Assembly (NCBI GenBank): GCA_023974075.1
Contig: JAMFTG010000262.1
Coordinates: forward strand, 32,501-96,500
Length of the DNA: 64,000 nt
Source of the DNA: Chaenocephalus aceratus
Taxonomy: Eukaryota > Chordata > Actinopteri > Perciformes > Channichthyidae
Reading direction: 5' to 3'
The notes beneath the pieces were generated by a model that was given only the letters and a program-made list of their open reading frames with translations, had not been told where the DNA came from and made no database searches. The translations under genes were made by a program, and so were the position numbers. Below, piece by piece: positions 6,859 to 40,192 of the stretch. Position 1 is the stretch's first letter. Each line of letters begins with the position of its first letter.

Positions 6859-7116
6859 ATGGAAAAGTTCAGCAAGATGGGAGTGAAGCAGGAAAGTAGT
6901 GATGGAGAGGAAGAGGGAGCATGCGGGTGGTCGAAGGACATGAGCGGGGAGTTCATGAGTGCACGGGAGGCGAGAGAGCGCCTGAGAGAGTCGGCGGTGA
7001 AGATGGCTAGAGACGCGGGAATGTCGCCGTCTTCCGCGGCATTTCGCGCCATTTCCAAGCTGGATGTAAACAACAATGGCGGCGCCCATCGACCAGCAGC
7101 CTCTGAAAAGGCATAA
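6859..7116 (+). CDS. Short gag-like reading frame of the mini retrotransposon
   Basis: 85 codons from an ATG 65 bases after the primer-binding site. The product is charged (many E, K, R) and has no zinc knuckle, protease or RT motif. I do not recognise a domain. Position alone suggests a remnant gag N-terminus, perhaps kept for its packaging signal. A downstream frame overlapping its end (from 7076) runs through the minisatellite. Confidence 0.4.
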   Translation: MEKFSKMGVKQESSDGEEEGACGWSKDMSGEFMSAREARERLRESAVKMARDAGMSPSSAAFRAISKLDVNNNGGAHRPAASEKA

Positions 7117-7151
7117 GACCAGCCACACTCTCAGCCCATCTATAAAGGGTT

Positions 7152-7675
7152 CCCTCACAGCGTGGAGACCAGCGTGTCAGTGGACAGCGTGGAGACCAGC
7201 GTGGAGACCAGCGTGTCAGTGGACAGCGTGGAGACCAGCGTGGAGACCAGCGTGGAGACCAGCGTGGAGACCAGTGTGGAGACCAGCGTGTCAGTGGACA
7301 GCGTGGAGACCAGCGTGGAGACCAGCGTGGAGACCAGCGTGGAGACCAGTGTGGAGACCAGCGTGTCAGTGGACAGCGTGGAGACCAGTGTGGAGACCAG
7401 CGTGTCAGTGGACAGCGTGGAGACCAGCGTGGAGACCAGCGTGTCAGTGGACAGCGTGGAGACCAGCGTGGAGACCAGCGTGGAGACCAGCGTGGAGACC
7501 AGTGTGGAGACCAGCGTGTCAGTGGACAGCGTGGAGACCAGCGTGGAGACCAGCGTGGAGACCAGCGTGGAGACCAGTGTGGAGACCAGCGTGTCAGTGG
7601 ACAGCGTGGAGACCAGTGTGGAGACCAGCGTGTCAGTGGACAGCGTGGAGACCAGCGTGTCAGTGGACAGCCAGT
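7152..7675 (+). repeat. Minisatellite of 12- and 15-bp units inside the LTR element
   Basis: The array mixes 'gtggagaccagc' (12 bp) with 'gtgtcagtggacagc' (15 bp). They are arranged in higher-order blocks of two to five 12-mers per 15-mer. Both units are multiples of three, so two frames stay open across the array: one reads VETS and VSVDS, the other WRPA and CQWTA. Confidence 0.95.
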
Positions 7676-7760
7676 GGGTTGGTCCCTGCAGAGTACTGGA
7701 GAGGGTGGGGGGAGTGTTTGTGCTGTGTTTTATTTGTTCCTCGTGGGCGAGGAACTTTGT

Positions 7761-7773
7761 AGTGGGGGGGTAG
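7761..7773 (+). other. Polypurine tract before the 3' LTR
   Basis: 'agtgggggggtag' sits directly against the 3' LTR, as a plus-strand primer site should. Confidence 0.65.
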
Positions 7774-8082
7774 TGTAGCGATCCTGCATAGGATGTTCAG
7801 GGTGTCACTCAGGCATCCCCCGTCCTCTGCCAATCATAGAGCTGCACAGTGATGCTGGTTGAGGTGCGGGCCTGTGGTTGGGGGAGCGGACGGGGGAGGG
7901 CGGGGAGTTGTGACGTAGACACTGCTATATTTATATGTGTCGGGGTAGGAGTTAAGTCAGTGTGGGAAGTGTGAGGTAGAACCCCCACAATGTACCGGTA
8001 CCTGTGATCATCTGTAAGAATATCTGTTATTAAAGCCTAATAACGAGAAGCCTGTTTCCGACTCCACCTTGCGAACGTTACA
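7774..8082 (+). repeat. 3' LTR of the mini retrotransposon
   Basis: 309 bp. It matches the 5' LTR apart from one missing base pair near 7824 and one extra G near 7975. Confidence 0.85.
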
Positions 8083-9902: not shown

Positions 9903-10296
9903 AAAGATGTATCAGAACACCTTAAAGCATCCCTATAACCTTAAAGATGTATCAGAACACCTTAAAGCATCCCTATAACCTCTTAAAGATGTATCAGAAC
10001 ACCTTAAAGCATCCCTATAACCTCTTAAAGATGTATCAGAACACCTTAAAGCATCCCTATAACCTCTTAAAGATGTATCAGAACACCTTAAAGCATCCCT
10101 ATAACCTCTTAAAGATGTATCAGAACACCTTAAAGCATCCCTATAACCTCTTAAAGATGTATCAGAACACCTTAAAGCATCCCTATAACCTCTTAAAGAT
10201 GTATCAGAACACCTTAAAGCATCCCTATAACCTCTTAAAGATGTATCAGAACACCTTAAAGCATCCCTAGAACTCTTTAAAGATGTATCAGAACAC
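9903..10296 (+). repeat. 42-bp minisatellite
   Basis: About nine copies of a 42-bp unit containing 'aagatgtatcagaacacc' and 'ttaaagcatccctataacc', nearly identical in the middle and degenerate at the edges. It reads open as a 14-residue repeat (MYQNTLKHPYNLLK) only because 42 is a multiple of three. There are no start context, splice sites or flanking coding sequence. It stops about 50 bp before the TTAA that bounds the large transposon. Confidence 0.95.
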
Positions 10297-10352
10297 CTTA
10301 AATGTCCTCCTTAAATCCCCCAGGTCCCCTTAAAAATCTCGGAACCCTTAAA

Positions 10353-10366
10353 GATCAAATGCAAAG
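10353..10366 (+). repeat. Left terminal inverted repeat of the TTAA transposon
   Basis: GATCAAATGCAAAG, one base after the flanking TTAA. Its exact inverse lies at 21214-21227. Confidence 0.75.
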
Positions 10367-10530
10367 CTTTCAAATATGCTACATTTTTATAGAAATGTTG
10401 TTTTTAAGACTGCCTGTATTTAAAAATACAGGCAGAGATAATACACCCGAAAAAAAGCTTTTTATTGATACAAAACTCGACCCAAAGCCGTCTGAATTTC
10501 TGACATGACATTCCCAGCAGCCTCCGCGCG

Positions 10531-10553
10531 CGTGACGTCACTGTTGCCAAACA
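10531..10553 (+). promoter_or_regulatory. CRE-containing promoter motif of the THAP gene
   Basis: CGTGACGTCA, two bases, then GTTGCCAAACA. It contains a perfect palindromic CRE (TGACGTCA) and lies 70 bp before the THAP start codon and 180 bp inside the left end. The same 23-mer with two mismatches lies inverted at 21013-21035 before the other gene. Confidence 0.6.
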
Positions 10554-11244
10554 GTCTCTGGACCAAATATCTCGACTCGGCAGTTTCGGTCACATGTTTT
10601 TCAAAAAGAAAACGGAATTAACATGGGTTATTGTTGTGCTTTTTGTTGTACGAACGGTGCGGGATCTGGGAGAGTTTTCCATGCATTTCCCAAAGACCAA
10701 ATCATCCGCCAAAAATGGATTATTTGAGTGAATCGTGTTGGCTGGCAACCGACAAAATGGAGCAAGCTGTGTTCTGACCACTTCGCGTGTGATGCATACG
10801 ACGTTGATCCTGCTGTCATCAAGTCTGTTGGTGCAGAAGCATTAAAGTACATCGGAGGCTGAAACCCGGAGCCGTTCCCTCCATATTTCAGCACAAGAAA
10901 CCACGGAAAGAACGAAAGAGCCGGGCGATGGCGAAACGCCAAAGAATTGAGGTTAACAACTTTTATTAGATTTCAAAGCGCACGGAGCACTGCAGATAAC
11001 GGAATTGCAGTTTTATTAAGTTGTATTGCTTATAGAGGTGGGCACCGTTAGATTATGTGTCTTTACCATCATAAACGATGTGTTGGATGTGCAGCTAGGA
11101 TAAGTAATAAGGGAACTAGGAGTGATTTCGGTGCAGTAACAGGTTAGCATTTTTCGCTCGGGGCTAATTCACTGTTAGCATTGAAGTTTATCTGCAGCTC
11201 ATTCATCGCTCCTCCACTCATAACGGAAAAGTGTGAACAATGAA

Positions 11245-11345
11245 TTAATTTACCCCTTTTACAAGTGAAGATATAGTCTTTGTTGTGTTAGTGGCATTTT
11301 CGAGCCTGAAACCTGACAAACAGGCTCAGGGCTTAATAGGTTAAA
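11245..11345 (-). repeat. Dispersed repeat shared with 36898-37015
   Basis: Read on the minus strand, 'agccctgagcctgtttg' is followed by a 'caggctcgaaaatg' word. The same sequence is on the plus strand at 36.9 kb with a similar 'aaaaggggtaaatt' end. It is an intronic interspersed repeat of unknown class. Confidence 0.6.
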
Positions 11346-11599
11346 ATATTCCTTCAAACAGGTGGTGAAAAGTTTGATGCAGGACACCAGCACAGACACT
11401 GAGGATCCTGACATTGAGGGAGGTACTGAAGTCGAGCAGATTGGGACAGAGGAGCCACACTCTTCTGGAGCCATGCAAACCGAAGTAGAGGTAAACAAAA
11501 GAATAAAGAACACACCATCATGATGTAGTTGTTGTTCACATATATATACTAGTACCAATATCAGCCTTTTTGAATGGACACATGCCCGTTATTTTTGGC

Positions 11600-12572
11600 A
11601 GTAACTAGTACTCTAACGCATTACTTTTTAAATTCAGTAACTCAGTTACCGTGACTACATGGTGCGTTACTCCGCTACTGCGTTAGTTTTTTTATATAGT
11701 CAACAGCCAGGCGAACAGAGATGAGAACTGTACTTAAGTACTTGAGTAAATGTACTTAGATACTTCCTGTGTCTCATGCGGAGACGCGCTGTGGGCGTGT
11801 TTGTGTTGTTTACCAACAAGACTGTCATGGCGGCGGCGGAGCTCAAGTCTAGTTTCTCCACCTGGAGATATTCTCACTATTTCACTTTTATCGAGCACTA
11901 AGAAAAGAACGTTTTAGTTAAATGTAAGTTGTGTCCTGGCGGGTCAAAGAGCCTATCTACTGCCCAAACCAGTCATTCAAATCTCTTAAAACATCTGCAG
12001 AAACAACATGCTGGGACGAAGCCAGTAGCTCAGACCACAGAGACTCAGCCGACGCCACTCCACCTGCACCTGCACCTCAGCAACAGCGGCTGGATTTTAA
12101 CCGAGGGACTGCTAGCCAGGGGAAAGTGGATAAAGCGATTGCACGGTATGTTGTAGAACACATGCAGGCTGTTGCTCCAGTGGAGTCACCCGCTCTCAGG
12201 GAGCTAGTTAGCATGATAGCATGTCCGGGCGGCACACGGCATATGGGACGGAACACTTTTTCCAACTACCTGGAGAAAGAATATACAAACATGGAAAGCC
12301 AGCTAATATCGATGCTATCCAGATTGCATATAGTGCATGTCAAGTTGATCAACAGATTGTATTATTCTCCAATGCAATAACAGACTGAAATGAAGGCTAT
12401 AAGGGCATTAATATAATGGGAGCCCTTTTTTTAAGTAACTAAAACGTTACTTTTCACAGTAACGCATTACTTTCTGGTGTAAGAAATCAGTAAAGTAACT
12501 GAGTTACTTTTGAAATGAAGTAACTAGTAATGGTAACTAGTTACTGGGTTTCAGTAACTAGCACAACACTGG
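11600..12572 (+). mobile_element. hAT-type element with BED-finger fragment
   Basis: The ends are rich in 'gtaactagttac/aacgcattac' words and the right end finishes 'agcacaacactgg', typical of a large fish hAT group. Inside (about 11920-12300) a frame reads VKCKLCPGGSK and HLQKQH (a BED zinc finger), then a hAT N-terminal region (KAIARYVVEHMQAV, SNYLEKEY). There is no catalytic core, so it is an internally deleted, non-autonomous copy in an intron of the THAP gene. A 5'-truncated sister copy is at 49701-50356. The left boundary is approximate. Confidence 0.75.
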
Positions 12573-13087
12573 TTGTAATACACAATCAAGATTGTTCATC
12601 TTGTAAATGTTCAATTTGTTATTTTCCAATTTTATTACAGCTGCAAAACCGTGCCACTCAAACGTACGAGAGAGATTTTCCATCTCAGAAAAAATCATCA
12701 AGGTCAAGGGGAACCTGTACTTTGGGCCTCAAATCTGGTTCGGACTTCGGACAACAGACTGCACTCCTCACCACAACGATCGGGACATCGTACCAGCCTC
12801 CTCCCATAGATCTCGATGAAGACAGTGATCATTCCGAAGATCAGTCTGATGATGAGTCAGATGATGATCCTGACTGGCATTTTTCATGTGAAGATGCAAC
12901 AACAGACCAGGATGATGGAGACACAGATGATGACAATACTGTGTAAGTACATGTAGATGTTCAGCAAATATCGTGTTATGTCTTATACATTGAGATCTTA
13001 TTGGGATATAAACCCCATGGATATTGCTACTTATATTATAGCTACATTCACGGGATTTATGACAGATAATACACTGATGACGTTCTG

Positions 13088-13135
13088 TGTGATATCACTA
13101 TTAGATCGAGGCGTAGATCTAATAGTGATATCACA
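13088..13135. repeat. Perfect 20-bp hairpin
   Basis: TGTGATATCACTATTAGATC, an 8-base loop, then its exact reverse complement. It lies in an intron of the THAP gene. It may be a fold-back relic. Confidence 0.9.
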
Positions 13136-14561
13136 CCTCAGTGAAGACCCCTCTTGTATTATCTCACACATATTAAAGTGTATTATGTAGCTATTATAAA
13201 GAGCGATGAGAGTCAGACGGCATATATGAATACTGGTATGTGTATACATACCAGTATACACATACTGTCCAGTGTCCAATCTCATTTCCGACGGTGCCCT
13301 ATTTTCACGTTTACACATTTCAAATCTTATTTCAGGAAGAAAGAACTTTATCCAGATGCCTCGCCTCTGGAAGACCAAAAGTTCCTGGTCTATGGCAGTT
13401 GCCTGCTGAAGTTGCTGGCCATCTGCTCTGTGTGTTTCGCCACTTGTCGGGTCCAGCTCAAGCGCGTCATTGGGAGCATGGTGGTGTTTGAACAGTTGTG
13501 TGCACATGGCCACTCTAAGGTATGGGACTCCCAACCATGCTATGGAACAATGCCTGCAGGAAACCTTCAGATTGCTTCAGCCATTTTGTTTGGAGGGAAC
13601 AGCTCTGTGAAGATTCTGAATTTGTTTCGATACATGAATATCCCAGCCATATCTCTGCGAACATATTCCCTGCTCCAAACCTCGTACCTGATTCCTGCTG
13701 TTGAAAATGTGTGGAAAAGAAAACAACAACATCACCTGGCAGCGTTGAAGGATCGGCCAGCTAAGTTAGGAGGAGATGGTCGCTGTTGTTCCCCTGGTCA
13801 CACTGCAAAGTTATGGCAGCTACACCTTGATGGACCTGACTAACTCCAAAGTGCTTGACACACAGCTAATACAGGTGAGTTAGATTTGGTTCAATCACTC
13901 AGTAATAACCTGATATCTGTGTATAATCATGCTCTGGTTCTATATCCATCCAGAGAGCAATGAAGTCAGCAGCTCAAACGCCATGGAGTTGGAGGGACTG
14001 AAGAGGGGTCTTCAAAAGCTGAAGGATGAAGGTATCACCATAGCATCAATCACCACAGATCGGCATGGTTCTGTAAAAAAATATATAAGGGAGAAGGAGC
14101 CTTCAATTGAACACTGGTTTGATGTATGGCATGTAGCTAAAGGTAAGGTGCTATTTTACATAAAAACATACAGAAATAAACAAGTTCTTTAAGTAAGCAA
14201 GATAAACGGTGTACTATTTTATATAATACTGTAGGGATCCGAAAAAAGCTTGATGCCAAAGGGAAGAGGAAGATCCTGAACATACTGCTGATGTGGTCCA
14301 AGTCCATCAGTCACCACGTCTATTGGGTGGCATCAACCAGCCAAGGTGACGGACCATTGGTTGTTTGAGACGTGGCTGTCGCTGCTCAACCATGTCATCA
14401 ATGTCCATACTGGCCATGGACAGCTCTTTCAAAGCTGTGTACATGTCCACTGGAACAAAATGATGAACGAGACTGGCTTATCAAAGGTACTTAAGACACA
14501 AATGTGTATACACTTACAAGGACACATTTTTGCATCCTTCCAAAATATTTGGGGGTATCAG

Positions 14562-15000
14562 TAGGGCTGCAACAAACGACTAATTTGATAATCGATTAAT
14601 CTATCGATTTAATGAAACGATTTAATCGACTATTCGGACTATTACTGTATGCCTTGCACAATTTCTCAAACGCTCTTATTCAGCCATCAACTTTTAGATT
14701 TAGCTTGAGGTTGTTTTAGGCATGTGGAAACTAACAATGAAGGACAATAAAGATGATACTTGATTCAAAAATACATATTATTAAATTAACTAACAAATTT
14801 TGAACAAAATTAACATAGCTTTTATTTAAATAAAATAAATAATATTTCACATCAAAAAGAAACAGAATGTTTTAACAAATGTATTAAATAATCTGATGAC
14901 AGAATTGTAAACGGAATAGCTGAAACTTGTACAAAATAAATAACTCAGTTTCCTCTAATCATTAAACCATGTTTGCATAATGTAGTTAAACTCTGTGTGT
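14562..15000. mobile_element. hAT-like fragment, one end only
   Basis: Begins TAGGGCTGCAACAAACGAC with 'gataatcgattaatc', the known start of a widespread fish hAT-type family. No matching right end was found, so it is truncated. AT-rich body. It lies in an intron of the THAP gene. Confidence 0.6.
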
Positions 15001-15307
15001 TGCTGCTAGCATACAGAACACCTGACGTGGAAACGTTCCTCGTGGATGGGGCTGCATATGTCAGGACCGACAATGTCCAGTAATTGACGATGAAATATTT
15101 GTTCCCAAAGGTTCTAAACCCTACAAAGAGCTGGAGCTGATCGTCAAAAGCAAGCTGCTGTTGAAGGACATCGCTCGCCTGTCGCCTGCAGAAACAAACG
15201 TCGTCTTTGGATTCGTTTCATAAAGTCATTTTATTCTTTGCACCCAAGAGCGTGCATTTCCCATTCACTACTATGGCTGCCAGGTATTTCTATAAATTCC
15301 GTTGCTC

Positions 15308-15342
15308 GTGTGTGTGTGGTGTGTGGTGTGTGTGTGTGTGTG

Positions 15343-15428
<86 letters not shown>

Positions 15429-15456
15429 TGTTTGTGTGGTGTGTGTGTGTGTGTGT

Positions 15457-15489
<33 letters not shown>
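15308..15489 (+). repeat. (TG)n microsatellite
   Basis: About 180 bp of TG repeats with a few interruptions, directly against the left end of the long-inverted-repeat element. Open frames of Cys-Val are artefacts. Confidence 0.97.
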
Positions 15490-15493
<4 letters not shown>

Positions 15494-18400
15494 CCCTTTC
15501 CCGTCATTTTTTCTACCGGCAGGGCGTCCCATAGACCTTCCATTGCGGACACAGCGGACCCCTTGCCCGTCAGGCTTCTACGGGCAGGGCGTCCCATGGA
15601 CCTTCATAATGCCTATTTAAAGGTTCATTTGGCTTTAACATGCGTTTTGATGTCATTGTATGCGAGTAATGAGTTTTTATTTCTGATTATTGTGCTAGTA
15701 CATGTACATGATGTTTAGTTTGCTAGTTATGACGAAGATTCCTTCATGCATGTGTACACATTCATGGTTGCTAAGGTGGTTGCTATGGACGCTGCAACAG
15801 CTCCCAGACCACGTGATCAACATTTAAGGTTCATTTGGCTTTAAAATGCGTTTTGATGTCATTGTATGCGAGTAATGAGTTTTCATTTCTGATTATCTGT
15901 GCAGTACATGTACATGATGTTTAGTTTGCTAGTTTATGACGAAGATTACCTTACGTCTGTGAGGAAAATACACGGGGCTCAGAGCCTCGTATTTTTAAAA
16001 TCTTTTTTTCCTTCTAATTTGTTATTCTTTTCAAAATAACACACTGGTATTTACTCACCAATAACACACAATTATCCTTGCTTTTATTTATTGGTTTAAT
16101 TCCATAATCTCGGTCTTTTTTGGTGTCCGTCAGGAACTGAATTTCAAAATAAAAATAACCGGAAACAGACGTAGGCCTATAAGGGACAGTTCGAGCATCA
16201 TTGCGATTGTCAACATGTTTGAGTTTAGGATGGCCGAAGACACTACACTACCCATAATCCCCAGCTATCGTTTAGGACGACAGTCCCCGTGATTACTCTT
16301 CAAGGTCTGGGATTGGATGTTGGAGTGGCAGTGCGCCAAGGTTACAGCGTCAAACAGCTGTTGAAATGGAACGAAACCACGCCAGACTATCCAAAACTGG
16401 AATCGAACGCCCCCCCAGAACTACACACTACACTATTGTGTTTCGCAAATGTTTCTATGGGACGTCTCTACTGAACGTTTTCGTTTTTCCCACAATTAGA
16501 AGTTGCCAGTATTAAACACATTGGTGTTATCAAATGTAAAACATATAATTAATAAATGGGTGAAAATCGCTGTCCATAATGCGCAGCATCAATATATAGC
16601 ATTAATATATACCCACATGACAGCTCATTGCTACTTTGTAATTCTACTCCACTACAATTCAGAGGTTAACCTGGTATTTTTACTCCACTACACTTATTTG
16701 AGTTACTTTGCAGATTCTGATTAATTATGTGAAATATAAAACAACCCTTAAATCAGACTTTAGTTACACCTGAGTAACCATTCAGGTAAGGTGATTGTCA
16801 AGTGCCAACAATCAGGTGAGATATTTGATAGTTGGTGCTTGAGAAGACTAAACAGGTATCTGCAATTGACATGAATGGAAACGAGTAATAAAGTATATTA
16901 ATTACTCGTTATTCTCTACTAATAGTTAATTAAAGACTATATATTATGGCTATTTTGCACATCCCTTTCAAGATTTTAAAGGTGTATTGACATATCATTT
17001 AAACAACTTACGGTGTAGTTATGAAATGAATGAAAAACTTGGGCCACAGGTCCCTCAACAGTGCATTACAAGACATCTATCAATGTGTGTACCTCCACCA
17101 TTAAACTGTCATATTCTGCACATTTCTTATTCTATCTACATAAGAGTATAATTAATGTGTATAATATCAGTTAAAATAAGTGCTTCAACATAGTTAACAT
17201 TGCAGGAAAGCAATATATTAGACGTTAAGTACTTTGTATTTATCTGTAGATAGATACCCCCAACGTTTTTTTTCTTATTTAAAAGAAGACCTTATCTGTT
17301 ATTTAATGTTTAAATAAAGGTTAATTCGTTTTTCTGTTTTGCACCTCCTCCTATTAATATCTTTGTACATCCTGCACTAAACTGTTTTATTGAAGAGATC
17401 AACTTATAGTATCTTCTTGATTTTTTATATTCTATATTTCTATCACAGACCTTCTACTTTCCCCCTATGAAAGTATATGTACTCTTAATATTTTTTTTAA
17501 TCAAATATAACACATAAAAACAATAATTCAATAACGTGCTTTAACCACTAGGCACACAAGGTACACACAGATACTTGTATGTACAACATCTGAAGATGTG
17601 TAGTTTATTCATGCTTTCACATAATTTTACAGCATATTGCTTATACTATTTCAGACTCAGTATTTACATTCTTACATTCAAAATTCAATCCAATTCAAAT
17701 CAGTAATATCTTTTTATATCAGCTGTGCACCGTTATGGTGTAAATATAACTATCTATGAATTATATCAAATGTAAAAGTCAGCCAAATTAGTGTTGATAC
17801 TGCAAGGAGACGTATTGTGTGAAGAGAAATTGAGAAGTTTTTAATTGTTGATATATTTATGATCCACGTCAAGTATTCAGTTTCGGCGCCATTTCTTCAG
17901 TTTTTCCAAAGGTCTTCTCATCAGGGCGCTATACATAAAGAACTACGGCAGATCTGTAATATGTAATGCAGCCGAACCGTGTATTACAATGCCGTTATGT
18001 GATGACTTTCAAAGAGAAAAGCAAGAGCACTCGGAATTAAGTATTCTTTTAGTCTTTTCAAATGTTTTCCGGATTTCATATAATATAAACACCAAATCCC
18101 AGCATGCATTGCGGCTAACACATCCAATCAGTAGCTGAGAATCTTGGATAATCGCTCGAAATGCCCACGTCTGTTTCCGGTTATTTTTATTTTGAAATTC
18201 AGTTCCTGACGGACGCCAAAAAAGCCCGAGATTATGGATTAAACCAATAAATAAAAGCAAGGATAATTGTGTGTTATTGGTGAGTAAATACCAGTGTGTT
18301 ATTTTGAAAAGAATAACAAATTAGAAGGAAAAAAAGATTTTAAAAATACGAGGCTCTGAGCCCCATGTATTTTTCTCACAGACGTAAGGTAATCTTCGTC

Positions 18401-18640
18401 ATAACTAGCAAACTAAACATCATGTACATGTACTGCACAAATAATCAGAAATAAAAACTCATTACTCGCATACAATGACATCAAAACGCATTTTAATGGC
18501 CAAATGAACCTTAAAATAGGCATTATGAAGGTCCATGGGACGCCCTGCCCGTAGAAGCCTGACGGGCAAGGGGTCCGCTGTGTCCGCAATGAAGGTCTAT
18601 GGGACGCCCTGCCGGTAGAAAAATGACGGGAAAGGGGTAC
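15490..18640. mobile_element. Long-inverted-repeat DNA element (3.15 kb)
   Basis: The outer arms 15490-16172 and about 18166-18640 are inverted copies of each other, starting GTACCCCTTTCCCGTCAT. The left arm is longer because a block of about 110 bp ('aaggttcatttggctttaa' ...) is present twice (about 15617 and 15827). The middle is AT-rich with no transposase. A stretch of the middle (about 16740-17500) recurs inverted at 46870-47640. Another relative lies at 37083-38012 (shared 'ctatcgtttgggacta'-like block). Superfamily unknown; non-autonomous. Confidence 0.75.
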
Positions 18641-18706
18641 CCTGTACGTAATATAGCGACGGGAGGGCCCTGACCGTCCGTCAATATGTGACGGGATGAG
18701 AGTGAG

Positions 18707-18880
<174 letters not shown>

Positions 18881-19787
18881 TTCAGGTGCGGATGCCTATC
18901 TGATGAGCTTATTTACAATATAATGACAAAACCAGCCACAGGTCCCCGAGGCTGGCACCGAGAAAGTGCCCAGAGGAGTGAGACCGACGCAACCGCCTGG
19001 GCTCCTCCTTATCCCGCTTCACCAGGTGCAGCTCATCAGATAGCCATCCGCCCACAGGTGCGGCTCATCAGCACCTGAACAACCTGAACAAACCACACAC
19101 ACACACACACACGGCACCCCACGTGTGTGGTAGGGGTCATACAGGATTTATTTTGGTGAATTGTCCTACACAATTTATATTATTATTTTTTGATGCAGAG
19201 TACAATTAGCCGGACTACACTTCAATGAAAATTCTGCACGGGCTCAAGCTATGACGCAGACCGGGAAACACATGTGGGGCGTGTCGTTTCCGAAGGCCAG
19301 GAGGGGAGAGCCAGTCATCAAGCAGTCAAAGTTACACCAACTTTCGGTGAGTGTCTGCTCAATCGCTAAGCTTTCAACAGGCCCGAATGTGTTGTTTTGG
19401 AATATATTTTCCCCCTTGTTTATCTTTTCAGTTTATGTGCAAGAACTGATGGGAGAGGTTGTTGAGCTGCGGAATACTTACCCTACCTACAAGAAGGCCG
19501 AAGCGCTGAGGTCAAACAGACAAGTCCCACCGCCAATTGCGTCAGCATTTGTTAAACCTAACAAGCTTGTACTTGTTGGAGTACAGAGGAGCAGGAGTCG
19601 CTTTAATAAATAAATGGTGACATCTGTCGTGACCACACACACACATACACTGGGTTACATAATCCACACATGGAACTACAGTGGGGGGTTTGTGTTCCAC
19701 ATGGACATGTATGTGGATCTATATATATTGTGTGCCCTCCTGTCTTCTCTCTCTTCTTCCCGGACTGCAACCGGACAACATGTAACA

Positions 19788-19793
19788 AATAAA
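19788..19793 (+). promoter_or_regulatory. Polyadenylation signal of the THAP gene
   Basis: AATAAA 175 bp after the stop codon, in 'acaaataaagtctactg'. Confidence 0.5.
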
Positions 19794-19799
19794 GTCTAC

Positions 19800-20300
19800 T
19801 GTTGTACCTCCATTGCACCGCCTGCGACTCGCTATCTCTCGGCACTACACATCTTTCTTTTTGTACTGGTGCTCAAAATCAATTCATTTCATGTTGATCT
19901 TGGTTATACTTATGAGGGTTACCAGGGGGATACAATTGTGCATATCTAGTTTATTTTTGAGAAGACTGCTGTGGTCATGTTAGGTTTGAGGTCTGATATG
20001 AGTTATTTAAATCCAGATGATTCAAAAACACTCTTCCGTTGAGCAGCTGGTCTGGACGATAACTCTGGGTGTGTGTAAGAATTTCTGCTGTGTTTCTTTC
20101 AGAGTTCATATGGTGGTAAGCTACAGAGCCCTTGGCACTATTTTGTTCTATAATAATAATAAATTAATTAAACACTATGTACATTATGTTGTTTGTTTTT
20201 ATACTTTTGACCATACTGCACATAATGTTTTTCTTCATTTTATGCACAACTATTATACAATAAGACAACCATACACCTTAAGTACCAGTAATTCATGTAA
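19800..20300. other. Interval between the two convergent genes
   Basis: AT-rich, no gene seen. It should hold the 3' ends of both transposon genes. Confidence 0.4.
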
Positions 20301-20306
20301 TTTATT
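20301..20306 (-). promoter_or_regulatory. Polyadenylation signal of the P2X7C-like gene
   Basis: TTTATT on the plus strand (AATAAA on the minus strand), about 70 bp after the minus-strand stop. Confidence 0.45.
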
Positions 20307-20375
20307 TTTTACTGAATTTCGTGTTACACATAACTTATTATTATTCACATATAGATAATTGAAAACGTACACAGA

Positions 20376-20949
20376 TCATTCACTGACGGCTGGTTTAAAT
20401 CCTGTGTAGGCAACGCTTTCAGGATTAGGAAATGCTTTCCTGATGGCCAGTTACAGCGCAACTCGGAATAACACGTCTATTCCCACGGCCAAGTTTTTGC
20501 CCAAATCAGGAAGCAAAATCGCCGGTACGCCAGATGTCTGTAGACTTCATGTTCCGTTTCTTCGTCACCATACGGCCCATTGTGGTGGGCGTACTCATAC
20601 CGGGACACACGCAGCACATCACGGTCCAGACAGTTTATGTTGAACGTCCTACAGTCGGTGATGCAGACTTCTTCTCCCATCTCTTCCTTCACTTTCCCAT
20701 AGTTGTGGCAAGCACTTGTTTCTCGGCTTGTAGGCATGGTCTGGCAGTTTCCACATCGACACCAATTCTCAATACCCTCTGCCTCTTCCTCAGATGGCGA
20801 ACTTGAAGCATCGCCATCAGCACTTTCATCGGTGATATCAGGTGACGTTTCCTTGTATTCCTCTTCGACATCAGAGGCTCGTATAAATATGGTTGGATGT
20901 CGACAACATACTCCAGATATTGGGTGGCCTCCGACTCAGAATCAGACAT
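20376..20949 (-). pseudogene. P2X7 C-terminal (ballast) domain-like Cys-rich protein
   Basis: A single-exon minus-strand gene of about 190 codons. It begins MSDSESEATQYLEYV and passes an acidic Ser/Glu stretch. It then has WCRCGNCQTMPTS, a later C..C pair (EEVCITDCRTF), INCLDRDVLRVS, EHEVYRHLAYRRF, and in another frame LGKN, an IRKAFP core and YTGF before the stop. The WC.CG.C start and the LGK...IR.AFP...Y.GF end are hallmarks of the P2X7 intracellular domain family, which is common as stand-alone genes in fish. Damage: a frameshift near 20880, another near 20500, and one in-frame stop near 20456. No P2X channel part is present. It lies inside the TTAA element, convergent with the transposase gene, so I infer an accessory protein of the transposon. 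Confidence 0.68.
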
Positions 20950-21012
20950 GATAGACGAAACTAAGTTGTACTATCGGCGGGAGCCGCTGTGAGTGATAAG
21001 CCAGGGTTTGTT

Positions 21013-21035
21013 TGTTTGGCAACTCTGACGTCACG
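21013..21035 (-). promoter_or_regulatory. CRE-containing promoter motif of the P2X7C-like gene
   Basis: Minus strand CGTGACGTCA, two bases, GTTGCCAAACA: 21 of 23 identical to the motif before the THAP gene. It lies 64 bp before this gene's start codon and 192 bp inside the right end. A YY1-like CGCCATCTTG word follows just outside. Confidence 0.6.
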
Positions 21036-21213
21036 CGACGCCATCTTGCGGAGGAGCGGCTGAGAAAATAAATCGTCGGACTTGGTGTTGGGGGTTGAAC
21101 AAAAATAAATATTGCGCATTGCCAGACGCATATTATCTCCGATTTTAATACTGCAATATCTTAGATAGTGTGTAGCTATATGATTTTGATTTGACTGGCA
21201 ATTATAAAAAACC

Positions 21214-21227
21214 CTTTGCATTTGATC
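21214..21227 (-). repeat. Right terminal inverted repeat of the TTAA transposon
   Basis: CTTTGCATTTGATC directly followed by TTAA (21228-21231). It is the exact inverse of the left end. Confidence 0.75.
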
Positions 21228-21231
21228 TTAA

Positions 21232-22740: not shown

Positions 22741-22959
22741 TATTGATACAGCAGCTTTCAACACGAGGCTATTCAAAGAGCTTTCAACAAACGGAAGACA
22801 TTCAGAGCGTTCAGAACCAGTGCAGCGGAAACACGTCATCAGATGGCTTTTCAAACGAGTCGTTCAAAAGAGAAGAGACTCAAAGAAACACGAAGCAAGA
22901 CCTGCAGGTTTCTGGGAGTTTGATCCAGATGTTTGGAGAGTAACAACTGGACTACTCAG

Positions 22960-23692
22960 GTTTAGTTCCGGTTCTGGGACAGAAAGCAGACCAGAAGACC
23001 TGAGGAGTTCTGGTTCTGGGGACAGAAAGCAGACCCAGAAGATCTGAGAGTTCTGGTTCTGGGGACAGAAAGCAGACCTGAAGATCTGAGAGTTCTGGTT
23101 CTGGGGACAGAAAGCAGACCAGAAGACCTGAGAGTTCAGGTCTGGGACAGAAAGAGTTCTGGTTCTGGGGACAGAAAGCAGACCAGAAGACCTGAGAGTT
23201 CTGGTTCTGGGGACAGAAAGCAGACCTGAAAACCTGAGAGTTCTGGTTCTGGGGACAGAAAGCAGACCAGAAGACCTGAGAGTTCTGGTTCTGGGGACAG
23301 AAAGCAGACCTGAAAACCTGAGAGTTCTGGTTCTGGGGACAGAAAGCAGACCAGAAGACCTGAGAGTTCTGGTTCTGGGGACAGAAAGCAGACCTGAAAC
23401 CTGAGTTCTGGTTCTGGGGACAGAAAGCAGACCCAGAAGACCTGAGAGTTCTGGTTCTGGAGACAGAAAGCAGACCCAGAAGACCTCAGAGTTCTGGTTC
23501 TGGGGACAGAAAGCAGACCCAGAAGACCTGAGAGTTCTGGTTCTGGGGACAGAAAGCAGACCCAGAAGACCTGAGAGTTCTGGTTCTGGAGACAGAAATC
23601 AGACCAGAAGACCTGAGAGTTCTGGTTCTGGGGACAGAAAGCAGACCTGAAGACCTGAGAGTCTGGTCTGGAAGAAGCAGACCGAGACCTGA
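22960..23692 (-). repeat. 42-bp minisatellite
   Basis: About 18 copies of a unit that includes 'gagttctggttctggggaca' and 'gaaagcagaccagaagacct', with some copies shortened by a few bases. The minus strand stays open (SGLLSVPRTRTLRS) because the unit is a multiple of three. It lies just downstream of the B30.2 exon of the NLR gene, where the 3' untranslated region or flank would be. Confidence 0.95.
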
Positions 23693-23735
23693 GAGTAGTG
23701 GATGCTCTGAACACACTGATCCTTTGTGTTCAGGG

Positions 23736-24439: not shown

Positions 24440-25520
24440 AGATGCTCAGGATGAAACACACTCACACTTCCTGAGGCCTGGCCTCAAGAACCGGACTGCA
24501 GCAGGCTCCAGGCTGAAAGCAGAGGGGGTCAGTTAGTCTTTGAATGGTCTTCCATGTCCACAGACTGCCCCCCACATCCCTCCTGTTCCAGCTCCACACT
24601 CAGGATGGAATACGTTGATCACTTCCAGACACTCCAGCCCCCCACACATTATTTCACTTCAATCTTTATTTCAAACAGATTACAGAATAACAATGTGAAA
24701 GCAGAACAGCGTATTGTTAGAATAAAGTATGTATCAATGTTCATCATCATAATAATGAATCCTCTGTGTCCGAAGGGAGCAGGAGGAAGCATGCTCATTG
24801 GTCCCCTACTTCCTGCTGATCAGTGATTATCCTTTCAATCATGTCTGCAAGTTATTCCTACTCACATATTTACATTTATACATTTACAATCACTTCTCCT
24901 CTTCAATCTCCTGTCTTCATTCTCATGCTCTCCAGAGAAGTGTTTCTGTGCATCCTTCAAAGTGAACGCTATGTGTGCTTGTGAGCTCCTGCTCCAAAGC
25001 CCCCCCACAGATCGTTCTGCTCCTCTCAGAGTTCTCCTGACCTTGAGTTGTTCCAGACCTCCTCTCTGTCTGTGAACAACGTCTGTGGTTTCCTAGCAAG
25101 GAGACGATCTCTTGCTCTGTGCACGATGCACTTTGAAATGTAACCAGATCACTGAAGTGTATTTTAGACGACGGCGCAGGTGTTCAGGTGAGGTTTTCTC
25201 TGGTGCTTGTTTCCAGTAGAGAAACACTCTCTTATTCAATCATTGAAGTTAATGATGTGGTTCTAAAATAACTCAATTATCCTTTTAATTAAAATACCCT
25301 GAAAAGGCAGGAATGTTTGGAACTTGCATGTGAAGCTAACGTTTGCTTGTATTTGTGTTTTCAAGGTTTTCAACCTGATGACAATTATTGGCGTTGTCAA
25401 ATAATATAATAATTGTTAAAAATAAAGACAAAAAAGAATAAAATCTGAGTTGTCCAAGCGTCCTCTGTTGCCCTCCAGCCTCTCAAGTTCCAACTAAATC
25501 ACTATGTACCAAAACCCTGA
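24440..25520. other. NLR intron sequence, nothing recognised
   Basis: No exon, RNA or element end recognised in this part of the last NLR intron. Confidence 0.35.
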
Positions 25521-26051
25521 AGAACTTGACACTCAGAGTATATCACGATGTGAGAGTATCACTCAGAGTATATCATGATGTGAGAGTATCACTCAGAGTA
25601 TATCATGATGTGAGAGTATCACTCAGAGTATCACTCAGAGTACACGATGTGAGAGTATCACTCAGAGTATCACTCAGAGTATATCATGATGTGAGAGTAT
25701 CACTCAGAGTATATCATGATGTGAGAGTATCACTCAGAGTATATCACGATGTGAGAGTATCACTCAGAGTATATCACGATGTGAGAGTATCACTCAGAGT
25801 ATCACTCAGAGTATCACTCAGAGTATATCACGATGTGAGAGTATCACTCAGAGTATCACTCAGAGTATATCACGATGTGAGAGTATCACTCAGAGTATAT
25901 CACGATGTGAGAGTATCACTCAGAGTACATCACGATGTGAGAGTATCACTCAGAGTATATCACGATGTGAGAGTATCACTCAGAGTATATCACGATGTGA
26001 GAGTATCACTCAGAGTACATCACGATGTGAGAGTATCACTCAGAGTATATC

Positions 26052-26758
26052 TGTAAGGATTTGCAGTACTCCATTCCTTCTGCTTCCCTTTTTGTTGTTG
26101 TCTGTCTGTCTGTGTCTCCCGGGCTGGGCGTGGCTGACCTACTTCTGGTTCCTGCCAATTCATCTCCGCAGCTGCTTCTCATTCATCCTGATCATCTACT
26201 CATCCACACCTGCTTATTAACCCGGTCTCCTCATCCAGTCTTCACCAGTTCGTCGTCAAGGTTACACTGGTAAACGTATTGCTTTCTAGCCTAGCCTGAC
26301 ACAACTCTGGAATCAGTTTGTGTCTTACCTGTTTGTCTCTCTATCCAGAACCCATCATCACCTCCTCCGCTAGCCACGTCCAGCCACTTCCTCGTCGGAT
26401 TCTTCCGCTCTCCACGCTACCCGCCCAGCCTGCTCGCTCCCTCGCTCTGAAACCCCTGCTCGCCACACTCCTGTCTGGTAGGACAACTCTAACTCCTACT
26501 CCAACCTACTCGCTCTCGGGAGCGTACAGACTCAGGCTCAAGCCACCTCTCCTCTGCCTGGCGATATCCCCAGCTCCCTCCGGAGCCTCGGCTGAGGATC
26601 TCCATTCCCTAGTTTTGTATCCCCTTTCCTGGACTATATTACTCAGTTAGTATCCCCTGTCACGATTAGAGAATAAACCTTTTGCTACAAACTCCTGTTT
26701 TTCTGTCCGTGTTTGTATTGTGGGTTCAGTCCTGAAAAAGCGATCACGGAGCTTAACA
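26052..26758 (+). mobile_element. Solo LTR, 707 bp
   Basis: Starts TGTAAGGATTTGC and ends GAGCTTAACA (TG...CA), with an exact 5-bp target duplication ATATC on both sides (26047-26051 and 26759-26763). AATAAA at 26672 is placed as expected for an LTR. There is no internal region, so it arose by LTR-LTR recombination. A 5-bp duplication fits Ty3/gypsy-type integrases. Confidence 0.85.
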
Positions 26759-27436
26759 ATATCACTCAGAGTATATCACGATGTGAGAGTATCACTCAGA
26801 GTATATCACGATGTGAGAGTATCACTCAGAGTATCACTCAGAGTATATCACGATGTGAGAGTATCACTCAGAGTATATCACGATGTGAGAGTATCACTCA
26901 GAGTATCACTCAGAGTATATCACGATGTGAGAGTATCACTCAGAGTATATCACGATGTGAGTATCACTCAGAGTATATCACGATGTGAGAGTATCACTCA
27001 GAGTATATCACGATGTGAGAGTATCACTCAGAGTATATCACGATGTGAGAGTATCACTCAGAGTATATCATGATGTGAGAGTATCACTCAGAGTACATCA
27101 CGATGTGAGAGTATCACTCAGAGTATCACTCAGAGTACATCACGATGTGAGAGTATCACTCAGAGTATATCACGATGTGAGAGTATCACTCAGAGTATAT
27201 CACGATGTGAGAGTATCACTCAGAGTACATCATGATGTGAGAGTATCACTCAGAGTATATCACGATGTGAGAGTATCACTCAGAGTATATCACGATGTGA
27301 GAGTATCACTCAGAGTATATCACGATGTGAGAGTATCACTCAGAGTATATCACGATGTGAGAGTATCACTCAGAGTATATCACGATGTGAGAGTATCACT
27401 CAGAGTATATCACGGTGTGAGAGTATCACTCAGAGT

Positions 27437-28470
27437 TAGGGGTGTAACGGTACACGTACCCGTACCGAAATTATTCGGTACGGGCCCTTCGGTTCGGTAC
27501 ACGTGTACCGAAGTGTATCGAACGAATATAACGTTAAACGTAAACAATTGAGAACGTGAACAACTTCTTGGAAGTAATCTCAGGTGCTGCGTCGCAGCAT
27601 TCAGAGTAATTTGCTCCCATTGTGTTCAACGCGTCAGAGCGAGCAAGTCATTTCATTGGACGAGCTGAGGGATGCGTTCAAATGTAGTCAGTAATTTGAG
27701 GAACTGTCGAATGCAGATAAAGTTGAGCTCGAAAATCCTCCAGCATCATTGAAGTCTCCGGTTTGGGAACATTTTGGTTTCGCAGTTACGAACAAGGATG
27801 ACGGACAAAGACAGGTGGACCGAACCAAAGCTGTTTGTCGGCATTGTTCGACTAACATTCGTTACGCGGCTGGCAATACATCAAACGTGCACACTCATTT
27901 GAAAAGGCATCACCCGAATGTGAATATCACCGGTACCAAAAGACTGAAGTGCAAACCCAACTCCCACTCCACCACCACTCGCAAACATCAGACCGAGCCA
28001 AAGCTATTACAAACGCCAAATATCCTTATGTTGCCATGTTAGCAAAGCGCTACCTTGCTGTATCTGCTAGCTCTGTCCCTAGAGAGGGTGTTCTCCACAG
28101 CAGGAGACATTGCTAGTGCCAGCTGATCTGCCCTTTCGGAAAGCCATGTGGACAAGTTCATCTTTCTTTAAAAAAAACATGAAAATACAATGACAAGCAA
28201 GTCATAATGTCAAACTGGCTGCTTAGGTGCTAGTACAGTACAGTTCAAATACAGATTATTTCAGTTCATCGAAAAGCTGCACCTTAATGTTTATTTTATT
28301 ATATTTTGTATTTATTTGAGTGAATACATTATTCAGTTTAATAATAATAAAAAAAATGTTATGTTTTTTGATAATTATTTCTGCTGTACCGAAAACGTAC
28401 CGAACCGAACCGTGACCTAGAAACCGAGGTACGTACCGAACCGAAATGTTTGTGAACCGTTACACCCCTA
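27437..28470 (+). mobile_element. hAT element with BED finger, internally deleted
   Basis: The ends are inverted: TAGGGGTGTAACGGTACACG and CCGTTACACCCCTA, both followed inwards by 'gtaccgaa' words. Inside is a BED finger frame (27749-28042) and a short hAT C-terminal piece (28040-28175, YLAVSASSVP, then FSTAGDIASA in another frame). The catalytic middle is gone. The minisatellite resumes without a clear 8-bp duplication. Confidence 0.85.
27749..28042 (+). pseudogene. BED-type zinc finger of hAT transposase (ZBED-like)
   Basis: Reads VWEHFGFAV, then VCRHCSTNIRYA, then TSNVHTHLKRHHP: the C-x2-C / H-x4-H pattern and aromatic start of a BED finger. The frame ends after about 97 codons because the catalytic part is deleted. 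Confidence 0.8.
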
Positions 28471-33955: not shown

Positions 33956-34041
33956 CTGAAGAGACGATGAGGACAACAGTTATTCAGGAGACAGCAGTGT
34001 GTTTAAAACTGATTCACTAAATCAATGATCTCTGTACTCAC

Positions 34042-35846
34042 AGAGCCTTCCTGGAGGCTTTGACCACTGGCAGCAGCCTCAGAAGAGCCTCCTCTGAAGC
34101 AGAGTATTTCTGCAGGTCAAACACGTCCAGATCTTCTTCTGTTGACAGCAAGATGAAGACCAGAGCTGACCACTGAGCAGGAGACAGACTATCTGTGGAG
34201 AGACTTCCTGAACTCAGGGACTGTTGGATCTGCTCCACCAGAGAACGATCATTCAGTTCATTCAGACAGTGGAACAGGTTGATGCTTCTCTCTGCAGACA
34301 GACCCTCATCCATCTTCTTCTTGATGTACTGGACTGTTTCCTGATTGGTCTGTGAGCCACTTCCTGTCTGTGTCAGCAGGCCTCGTAGGAGTTTCTGATT
34401 GGTCTGCAGAGAAAGACCCAGGAGGAAGCGGAGGAACAAGTCCAGGTGTCCGTTTGGACTCCGTAAGGCCTGGTCCACAGCACTCTGGTAGAGATGTGTT
34501 AGTTCAGGTTTGGGTCTGAAGACTTTCGGCAGCCTGGAGGTTGCTGGTTCTTCTGACAGCAGGTTGACCCCAGAGCTGATGAAGGTCAGATGGACATGAA
34601 GAGCAGCCAGAAACTCCTGAACGCTCAGATGGACGAAGCAGAACACCTTGTCCTGGTACAGTCCTCTCTCCTCTCTGAAGACCTGTGTGAACACTCCTGA
34701 GTACACTGAGGCTGCTCTGATATCGATGCCACACTCCGTCAGGTCGGACTCGTAGAAGATCAGGTTGCCTTTCTGCAGCTGCTCAAAAGCCAGCTTCCCC
34801 AGAGACCCCATCATCTTCCTGCTCTCTGGACTCCAGTGTGGATCGGTCTCAGCTCCTCCATCATACTTGATGTTCTTCACTTTGGACTGAACCACCAGGA
34901 AGTGGATGTACATCTCAGTCAGGGTCTTGGGCAGCTCTCCTCCCCCTCTGGTTTTCAACACCTCCTCCAGAACTGAAGCAGAGATCCAGCAGAAGACTGG
35001 GATGTGGCACATGATGTGGAGGCTTCGTGAGGTCTTGATGTGGGAGATGATGGTGCCGGCCTGCTCCTGATCTCTGAATCTCTTCCTGAAGTACTCCTCC
35101 TTCTGTGGGTCAGTGAACCCTCGGACCTCTGTCACCATGTGCACACACTCAGGAGGGATCTGATTGGCTGCTGCAGGGCGGTGTGGTTATCCAGAGGCGA
35201 GCAGAGGGAAGCAGCTTCCCCCTGATGAGGTTTGTCAGCAGCCGATCCACTGAGGTGGACTCTGTGACATCAGTCAGGACCTCAGTGTTGAGGAAGTCCA
35301 GAGGAAGTCGACTCTCATCCAGACCGTCAAAGATGAACACGACCGGGAACTGATCGAACCTGCAGATTCCTGCGTCTCTGGTTTCAGGGAAGAAGTGATG
35401 AACGAGTTCCACCAAGCTGTACTTGTTCTCTCTCACCACGTTCAGCTCTCTGAAGGTGAATGGAAATATGAACTGGATGTCCTGGTGGGCTTTGCCTTCA
35501 GCCCAGTCCAGAGTGAACTTCTGTGTGAAGACTGTCTTCCCAATGCCAGCCACGCCCTTTGTCAGCACTGCTCTGATTGGTGCATCTCTTCCAGGTGAGG
35601 CTTTAAAGAAGTCTTCTTGTCTGATGGTTGTTTCTGGTCTGTCTGGTTTCCTGGATGCTGTTTCAATCTGTCTGACCTCATGTTCAGCATTGACCTCTGC
35701 AGACCCCCCCTCTGTGATGTAGAGCTCTGTGTAGATCTGGTTCAGAAGGGTTGGGTTTCCTGCTTTAGCGATGCCCTCAAACACACACTGGAACCTCTCC
35801 TTCAGGGTGGACTTAAGTTTACGCTGACACTCTGCAGCAAAGGTTC
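34042..35846 (-). pseudogene. NLR exon: FISNA + NACHT + winged-helix/NLR helical region
   Basis: One large exon of 1805 bp, the usual size for the family. Order: FISNA (KLKSTLKERFQCVFEGIAKA ... YTELYITEGG), Walker A GVAGIGKT near 35550, Walker B VVFIFDGLDESR near 35330, then ITT, where sensor-1 ITTRPAA is expected. After the frame break: HMVTEVRGFTDPQKEEYF, SLHIMCHIPVFCWI, CFVHLSVQEFLAALHV and helices to VVKASRKAL. One extra base near 35180 ('acaccgccctgcagc' where 'acacgccctgcagc' would keep frame) separates the two frames. All nucleotide-binding motifs are otherwise intact. Confidence 0.9.
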
Positions 35847-35989
35847 CTGAAAGAACACGCAACAAAGATCATTAGGTCCCACTGGAACTCTGGTTCTCTG
35901 GATGAAATATGGATAGATGCTGGTCTCTTGAGACATCAGCAGAGGAGACATTTATCCAGAGTGTTACATCGCTATAGAAACCCTCTTAC

Positions 35990-38012: not shown

Positions 38013-38414
38013 TGTTAGAGAATATTCTCTTATTGTATGTGCAGGGGAGCATTTTAGTGTTTCCCTATGTGTCTTGTTTGTAATTTGAACAGGGCAAAGG
38101 TCAAGAGGCCCTGCTTTCCCTGTGGGGGGAAGTGTGGACCATGCACGTTGGCTTTAATAGACCAGTTCTTTGTCTTCAGCATGTCTGGTACTAATTAGGA
38201 AAAGCGCGCGATTACCAACTCCTCCTTTTCAACATATAGAGGTGCTTCATGCATTACGTGCTCAGTGATGCGTGGGGATTTCTCACAGCATGTTGTAAAT
38301 GCCTTGGACTCACTCACGGCCGTTGGCTCTCAAATTAAACTCAGTGTTTGATATAAAGCGGACTCCAGCCTCCATTTCTTCCAACAACATTGCTGAAAAG
38401 AAGTTTCTCTCACA
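38013..38414 (+). repeat. 5' LTR
   Basis: About 402 bp, TGTTAGAGAATATTCTC to TTTCTCTCACA. Its polyadenylation word is mutated (aattaaa) compared with AATAAA in the 3' LTR. Confidence 0.85.
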
Positions 38415-38416
38415 CA

Positions 38417-38436
38417 TTGGCGTCACGAAACAGGAC
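38417..38436 (+). other. Primer-binding-like site and leader splice donor
   Basis: 'ttggcgtcacgaaacaggac' follows the LTR and resembles a retroviral tRNA primer site, with a TGGCG start. A consensus donor (gctg|gtaag) follows at 38459, as in a retroviral leader. I cannot name the tRNA. Confidence 0.5.
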
Positions 38437-39302
38437 ACCAAAAGATTTTCAAGAGCTGGTAAGTTCAATTCTATTTTGAGATTGTCTTACCAGCGTTTGG
38501 GATCAAAGGTGTATCAAAATTACCTGAGAGAACTGAGCTGCTGCATTTGCCCGACACCAACGGGCAAATCAGTGCCTAGCGACAAGGACAGGTTGTATCC
38601 AATCACCACACAGACATTCAGTATGGTGCGAGAGACACAACGAGAAAGAAAAGGAGGAAGAATCAGGAGGATTGTCTCCCTCCCTGATCACAAATCAGAG
38701 ACTGTTTCTTTTAACTGTCTAGCTTCAATATGTGATTCATCTAACTGTATTATTGTATCTTATGTGTCCTTAGTTTACTCAACGTGGGAGATATATCCAA
38801 TGGACAGGTACCGTGCGGACGGAGTGGCGTCGGAGGGGGTGAGAATGGCACTCGACACCATTGAAGACATGCCCCCAGAACTGTGGTGTAGCACTAGAGA
38901 GCAGTATAAGGCAATGATAAGGGATCAAGTAACATGTAGAGTGAGGAAACCAGATTACCAGGTTCCCAATCCAGGTGCTACTGCATGCAAACTGTCTGGA
39001 CCAGATAGAAAAACAAATGTTCTATCCACTCCACTTAAACACTCAGGAGGTGATGTAGATTTTTCAAAAAAGGCCTTAATCACTCCTTTTAAACAAACTA
39101 AAACTAATTCTGCAGTAAGTTTAATGTTAGACTACGCACATGAACGTAATATTAGTAACTGTTGGCTGTGCCAAAATATGCCAGAATCCATGCATTCTCC
39201 TATGTTTAGCCCAATTCCTTTTGCAAAAGTGGATTATAAATTAATTAGTTGGAACGACATTTACTCTAGGATTAGCGATGAGGCTGAGGACTGCTATACT
39301 CC

Positions 39303-39411
39303 TTCATACATTACATTACATTACATTGCATTTAGCTGACGCTTTTATCCAAAGCGACTTACAATAAGTACATTCGACCAGGAAGACACAACCTTGAGGA
39401 AAACAGAATCA
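39303..39411 (-). mobile_element. L2-like LINE 3' tail inserted in env
   Basis: 'acattacattacattacatt' followed by 'gcatttagctgacgctttta' and 'tccaaagcgacttacaat'. This is the reverse of a well-known fish LINE 3' end with (TGTAA)n tail. The same end, longer, is at 45998-46800. Confidence 0.75.
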
Positions 39412-40192
39412 TATAAGTACCCAACAGACTCTGATAAACCGTTACAGGACAAGGGTCTGGTCTCTCTCATTGTTGAGACAGTAAATACAAATTATCTGCC
39501 TGACGGTTTCAAACGATTGATGTTTTTAAAACTAATATATGTGAAGAAATACATTAACCTAGCTTTTGAATACAGATTCCAGTTAGCTCTGGTACAAACT
39601 AATTGTTCGGTTAATTCCACAAGTCCAACATGCACAAAACAACCACACATGGCATCTTTGCTGGTTGAAGCCTTGGTAACAGTTGTGCCCTGGTTTGGCT
39701 CCAGAACAGTGAACTCCGTTGAGGTTAAAATACATGATTGTACGAAACCAATACCCCTAGGCAATACCCCTACACGGGACTGTTCAGTATATGTTCCCCC
39801 AATTGTAGTACACGAATGGAAGAATGTGTCCATCTGTTTCCAGAATGAAGCAGGATCTCACACCTCTCCGGATGTGGGACACAGCGACTGTAATACCATA
39901 GTGAGGGTACAATTAGCCAGAATTCCCCTCCCACAGAGAGGCGACCGGGCTTATGGCTGCGTACCATATGACGTTTTTTATGGCACCTGTTATCTAGCCT
40001 ACCTAATTCCTTTAATCCTAACGTAAAGTAGAGGCAAATGAGATTGCAGCGATACTTCCCTCTCTACACAGGAACAGCAGGTCCATTACAAAAGGACAAC
40101 AGGTAGCGAGCCTATTTTTGCCCTGGTACGGCATTTATGTCAGTCAGCAGGAGATCATGGCATTATCCAAAGTAGTGGAACATCATCTAAAT

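Follow-up and report, generated by a model that had tools for sequence, protein, structure and literature searches.

A two-gene element between inverted ends

The stretch of Chaenocephalus aceratus DNA analyzed here (64,000 nucleotides; GenBank assembly GCA_023974075.1, contig JAMFTG010000262.1, positions 32,501 to 96,500; hereafter the window) holds, between its positions 10348 and 21231, two convergent genes enclosed by inverted ends. A gene for a THAP-domain transposase is read rightward, and KolX, whose product resembles the ballast of P2X7, is read leftward. The element is almost certainly a Kolobok DNA transposon of the Kol0 type, present here as a copy that has decayed.

The transposase pieces extend on the forward strand from 10623 to 19610. 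In a Pfam scan of the pieces joined in order, with X at breaks and matches considered up to E 0.5, the N-terminal domain matched the whole THAP profile PF05485 (1-87 of 87, E 2.4e-15), its AVPSIF box being present, and the core matched the Mutator-like transposase model PF20700 above its cut-off (E 6.9e-7). Exon 1 (10623-10951), which encodes the THAP domain, is interrupted by an in-frame TGA (10725-10727) and, near 10848, by a break in the frame. Downstream follow a putative exon 2 (11362-11490) and a putative exon for an acidic linker (12641-12943), both proposed from their open frames; a core exon with a frame break near 13811 (13334-13874); an exon with TTDRH and DVWH, within the PF20700 match (13953-14141); an exon that encodes an H..H..C.H finger and whose frame breaks near 14350 (14234-14486); exon pieces in a broken frame, overlapping the edge of an insert (15019-15290); and the C-terminal exons (19206-19610). 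Read by eye, without a model, the catalytic region shows TTDRH, then DVWH, which fits the C/DxxH signature of Kolobok transposases, and then the finger HVINVH..CVH. THAP itself is described in PMC6004289 as a usual feature of these enzymes.

KolX occupies one exon on the reverse strand (20382-20949). Its frame has three breaks, and both genes are broken in the window copy. The match of KolX to the P2X7 ballast model P2RX7_C (PF20478) reaches E 1.4e-15 when pieced together and 1.9e-7 for the largest open piece. Two further copies in the genome, on contigs C5 and C16, retain KolX as a single open frame of 190 residues; the match of the C5 protein to PF20478 (E 3.6e-18) runs through to the end, and this protein also matches the P2X7 chains of PDB (E 2.6e-8). 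In both copies, seven ballast cysteines (C64, C66, C69, C80, C81, C96, and C164) occupy the three zinc clusters given for P2X7 by Rump et al. (2020; PMC7016195), with the other letters of the motifs not all matched.

Much of the length of the window copy is due to nested inserts. Relative to another copy in the genome, L023, the window carries additional DNA at 11597-12571 (also absent, to within about ten bases, from a third copy, L026), at 14564-15056 (approximate edges; partly kept in L026), and at 15308-19143, which comprises (TG)n tracts and an element (approximately 15508-18645) whose inverted arms are long. L023 measures 5,776 bp without these three inserts but with small insertions of its own, and the window copy minus the inserts comes to ∼5.6 kb. 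The full-length ancestor probably measured ∼5.6-5.8 kb, with the three inserts enlarging the window copy to 10.9 kb. The arms within the third insert are as long as 167 nt (99%), and a relative of this nested element is the target of yet another copy, L053.

Matched ends and subterminal blocks

The motif GATCAAATGCAAAG is found exactly at 10353-10366 (forward) and 21214-21227 (reverse), with no further exact match in the 64-kb window; allowing up to two mismatches, there are three matches versus 0.73 expected. Comparison with other copies indicates that the family end consists of TTAA followed directly by AGATCAAATGCAAAG. The left terminal inverted repeat accordingly spans 10352-10366 on the forward strand, as read from the window together with the family copies, and the left target-site copy lies at 10348-10351, in a flank that recurs in loci L086 and L088. 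The right repeat (21214-21227, reverse strand) is one base below the family length and abuts the right TTAA (21228-21231); the missing base is present in six loci that share the right flank, where TTAA is followed by AGATC. A preliminary description of this DNA had placed both inverted copies directly beside TTAA; at the left end, a single A in fact separates TTAA from GATC.

Likeness between the ends continues past the 14-bp motif. When the first 20 bp are excluded, their global alignment scores 58, and the largest score in 1000 dinucleotide-preserving shuffles was 53 (none of the 1000 reaching 58); elsewhere in the window, none of 890 stretches of 280 bp reached their local score. Further inverted blocks are common to both ends at similar distances from them. 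The strongest pairs 10529-10553 (forward), which includes TGACGTCA, with 21013-21037 (reverse); these are 25 nt long, 92% complementary, and ∼180 bp inside the ends. The TGACGTCA core was present at both ends in all six copies scanned for it. One copy of the block lies upstream of the THAP start codon and the other upstream of the KolX start codon, and these start codons are 271 and 278 bp from their respective ends.

Copies in the host genome

We searched the 1.06-Gb assembly, in which the window is G000:C262:32501-96500, with the end pattern TTAANGATCAAATGCAAAG, which includes TTAA, allowing up to two mismatches. This gave 418 matches (205 forward and 213 reverse) versus 31 (18 and 13) for the control. 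Among the first 100 listed of these sites, all without mismatch, 62 formed 31 inward pairs within 15 kb, with ∼0.6 close neighbors expected by chance. The pairs measure up to 11,055 bp, and 19 of them are 1,567 to 1,908 bp long. Every pair matched the window element at both ends, over at least 250 of the 300 bp compared on each side, and both ends of each pair begin with 5'-AG (A being free in the search pattern and G fixed), which fits the 5'-RR and YY-3' termini given for Kolobok in PMC9587614. Matches to the end pattern in 14 viral contigs, one in each, were taken as chance.

The gene content of the 31 pairs was scored by tblastn. THAP is present in all of them. The 11-kb copy on C5, L023, and L026 contain THAP, the core (100, 38, and 19% covered, respectively), the transposase C-terminus, and a full-length KolX match, interrupted in L023 by ∼0.2 kb. 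L029, L030, and L031 keep THAP, the transposase C-terminus, and 26-38% of KolX, and L035 keeps 13% of KolX. The remaining 24 pairs have THAP only, with neither KolX match nor transposase core, and have the same right end. Since KolX is always lost together with the core, between the same two ends, these copies are internal-deletion derivatives and not a different element.

These pairs bear on whether the window might hold two adjoining elements paired only by a chance 14-mer: on the left a Kolobok element, and on the right, unrelated to it, a host gene or an element bearing P2X7C. The nested inserts could hide a join of this kind; however, the matched subterminal blocks and the recurrence of both 300-bp ends in 31 of 31 pairs argue against it, as do C5, L023, and L026, which have both ends, transposase parts, and a full-length KolX match, L023 doing so without any of the three inserts. 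We regard this explanation as wholly improbable. The preliminary description had proposed a single Kolobok-type element with a rightward THAP transposase gene and a leftward P2X7 ballast-like gene between its ends. The matched ends and blocks, the THAP and PF20700 matches, the PF20478 match of the second gene, and the genomic copies with both ends all bear this out. It had also asked whether the two ends occur together elsewhere, as they do, and whether both genes lie between them each time; this is so for the three pairs with a full-length KolX match and in part for four more, but not for the other 24. It had named, as an outcome that would refute a single element, the pairing of the left end with a different right end that leaves the P2X7C-like gene out. 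The gene is indeed excluded in these 24, but the right end is the same and the core has gone too.

A protein search of the genome with KolX produced 790 candidates, of which 150 were scored and all matched. Among these 150, four are full-length matches at 100% (C5, C324 twice, and C1012), and C16 matches at 97%; many others cover only residues ∼135-188, at ∼50% identity. Three of these diverged loci, picked by hand (L089, L090, and L091), all show KolX tail-to-tail with transposase exons on the opposite strand, and Pfam confirmed P2RX7_C in both of the two diverged loci scanned. In L090 and L091 the match falls into two blocks ∼0.5 kb apart, so that an intron may be present. A recent capture by one lineage of a P2X7- or nanor-like host gene as passenger cargo, in place of an old KolX, would agree with the absence of the gene from most pairs (24 of 31 with THAP only). 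We nevertheless consider such a capture very unlikely, given the tail-to-tail pairing in three of three diverged loci of the same genome and the association of KolX with Kol0 across vertebrates, annelids, cnidarians, and sponges reported in passages of PMC9587614. Outside this genome, we found no relative of KolX or of the transposase pieces in viral contigs and no relative of KolX in prokaryote genomes.

Insertion at TTAA

The 11-kb copy on C5 (C5:29201836-29212890; loci L027 and L028) and a short copy, L048 (C9:4998204-4999988), have each entered a TTAA site in one of two paralogous copies of a repeat, and the two sites lie 26 bp apart. Each repeat copy provides the empty site of the other, with a single TTAA in each. 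Empty sites had been proposed as a check in the preliminary description, and this reciprocal pair supplies them. The element thus makes the 4-bp TTAA target-site duplication by which Kolobok is recognized.

TTAA beside the ends in all 31 pairs follows from the construction of the search pattern, and a fairer count comes from the loci found through KolX, which were located by protein match independently of TTAA (some being one place fetched twice). Thirty were fetched and two had no exact 15-bp end; among the 28 with an exact end, 26 have adjoining TTAA. The target of L053, a relative of the window's nested element, is 78% similar to it, and in the window the matching place is unfilled but is not TTAA. 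The fetched sequences contained no empty site for the insertion seen in the window, nor any for the remaining copies.

Alignment of the window and C5 copies over 10,778 bases shows 86 mismatches and gap runs numbering 49 and 30; their flanks (1 kb and 0.5 kb per side) are unrelated and share no word longer than 11 bp. The right flank of the window copy recurs in C324 (two loci), C1012, C85, C1500, and C1580, and the left flank in both of the loci that could be compared on that side, one of the C324 copies and C1012. By sequence, these loci look like duplications of one insertion and not new insertions, redundancy of the assembly being the alternative.

Relation to known systems

Kojima and Bao (2022; PMC9587614), in the passages that concern these elements, state that the Kolobok families reported first, those of Kol0, code for KolX in addition to a transposase. 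They found KolX similar to residues 476-595 of human P2X7, its cytoplasmic ballast, and concluded that P2X7, and likely nanor too, derived from KolX. The preliminary description had supposed that a DNA transposon carrying a P2X7 ballast-like protein was not a described arrangement, which these passages contradict: The pairing of transposase and KolX was published in 2022, as was the derivation of P2X7 from KolX, and the window element adds another genome. In our literature search, PMC9587614 was the only paper to combine P2X7, ballast, and words beginning with "transpos"; P2X7 and Kolobok otherwise met just in a reference list, and among the matches listed KolX and Kolobok occurred together only in PMC9587614. 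Rump et al. (2020; PMC7016195), who define the zinc cysteine clusters of the ballast, have no word beginning with "transpos" in the main text.

The window element resembles Kol0 (Kolobok-1_XT in PMC9587614) in its TTAA target, 5'-RR end, C/DxxH signature and finger, and second protein resembling the P2X7 ballast. We found no departure from that family; the passages of PMC9587614 do not state the orientation of the genes. With the ballast of P2X7 and nanor, KolX shares the zinc cysteine clusters (PMC7016195) and a PSC..IR..FP..Y[ST]G tail; the ballast of P2X7 lies in exon 13, and KolX here is likewise one exon. It differs from P2X7 in having no ion-channel part and in belonging to a transposon, with relatives in many parts of the genome.

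An element of the piggyBac type, which likewise targets TTAA and may carry a KolX-like protein, hardly deserves consideration here: The transposase and the ends differ, the Pfam scan gave THAP, PF20700, and weak unrelated matches with no piggyBac model up to E 0.5, and the DVWH signature and the 5'-AG ends also speak against it. Moreover, KolX has the seven cysteines that, according to passages of PMC9587614, are mostly lacking in the KolX-like proteins of piggyBac.

The layout recalls maize MuDR, in which two convergent genes, for a transposase and a helper, each start beside one end. The resemblance is one of analogy, not kinship of the second gene, and MuDR differs in its transposase, in the length of its target site, and in its helper protein.

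A proposed role for KolX and for the short copies

By analogy with its family, the THAP transposase would bind the ends and move the element into TTAA sites, a target shown by the empty sites. KolX, read from the opposite end toward the transposase gene, encodes a free-standing protein that has the ballast's zinc-binding cysteines. The subterminal block shared by the ends may act as a promoter at each of them, and because the same promoter-like block stands at both ends, the two proteins would be made in step. The likeliest role of KolX, at about even odds, is that of an accessory, produced in step with the transposase, that aids assembly of the transposase complex or insertion.

A more elaborate proposal, which we consider rather unlikely, is that of a two-gene, two-promoter element making transposase and KolX together, whose THAP-only short derivatives are DNA-binding repressors of transposition. 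The KP derivatives of the P element are such repressors. The frame that starts at the THAP ATG stays open for 100 codons or more in 15 of 19 short copies, and unique changes in this frame (16 synonymous and 33 nonsynonymous, one of 20 frames being skipped for a different frame) give a crude ratio of 0.6. A role like that of KP is possible, by analogy; recent spread of one founder explains the open frames equally, and the ratio is indecisive.

Several observations weigh against the view of the window element as a Kol0 transposon with an accessory KolX. Single-sequence models of KolX had mean pLDDT of 34.5 and 36.9 and gave no usable fold. The changes in KolX are too few to demonstrate selection: L023 and C5 differ over 127 codons by five synonymous and seven nonsynonymous changes (dS 0.059, dN 0.024), and C5 and L026 by one and six. 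Reading of the catalytic region gave no complete DDE triad with exact first and last acids, the C5 and window copies having GDGRCCSPG. A full-length KolX match occurs in only three of 31 pairs, and is interrupted in one of these (L023), so that most copies must have moved with outside proteins. The in-frame stop in the THAP exon is common to the window and C5 copies, with leucine at this place in 26 other loci (some of them overlapping). If this stop is older than the move, neither copy was self-mobilized, and the 11-kb composite would have been moved by proteins from elsewhere and not by a full transposase of its own. Finally, two of the 28 KolX-found loci have no directly adjoining TTAA, namely, the window copy, with its end one base short, and L076.

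The insertion read from the empty sites and the intact KolX frames support, in another genome, the published view of the P2X7 ballast as a transposon gene. We regard our own additions as modest: the convergent layout, in which the two genes have matched starts and each end has a promoter-like block, and the persistence of an open THAP-only frame in short copies. The passages of PMC9587614 assign no function to KolX, and copies in which it is intact would allow asking what it does for the transposase.

Other features of the window

Arrays of repeats with open frames for repeated peptides, in several frames, occupy 302-1147, 7007-7796, 9926-10310, 22864-23729, and 25442-27551. Calls resembling tRNAs at 9937-10285 fall inside a tandem array and were taken as repeat artifacts. 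At 38299-40026, on the forward strand, two long open frames of 346 and 228 amino acids adjoin each other, with no Pfam match. Pieces of an NLR-type gene, whose FISNA and NACHT matches fit a bony fish as host, lie on the reverse strand at 34038-35868, with further matches to NOD2_WH and NLRC4_HD2.

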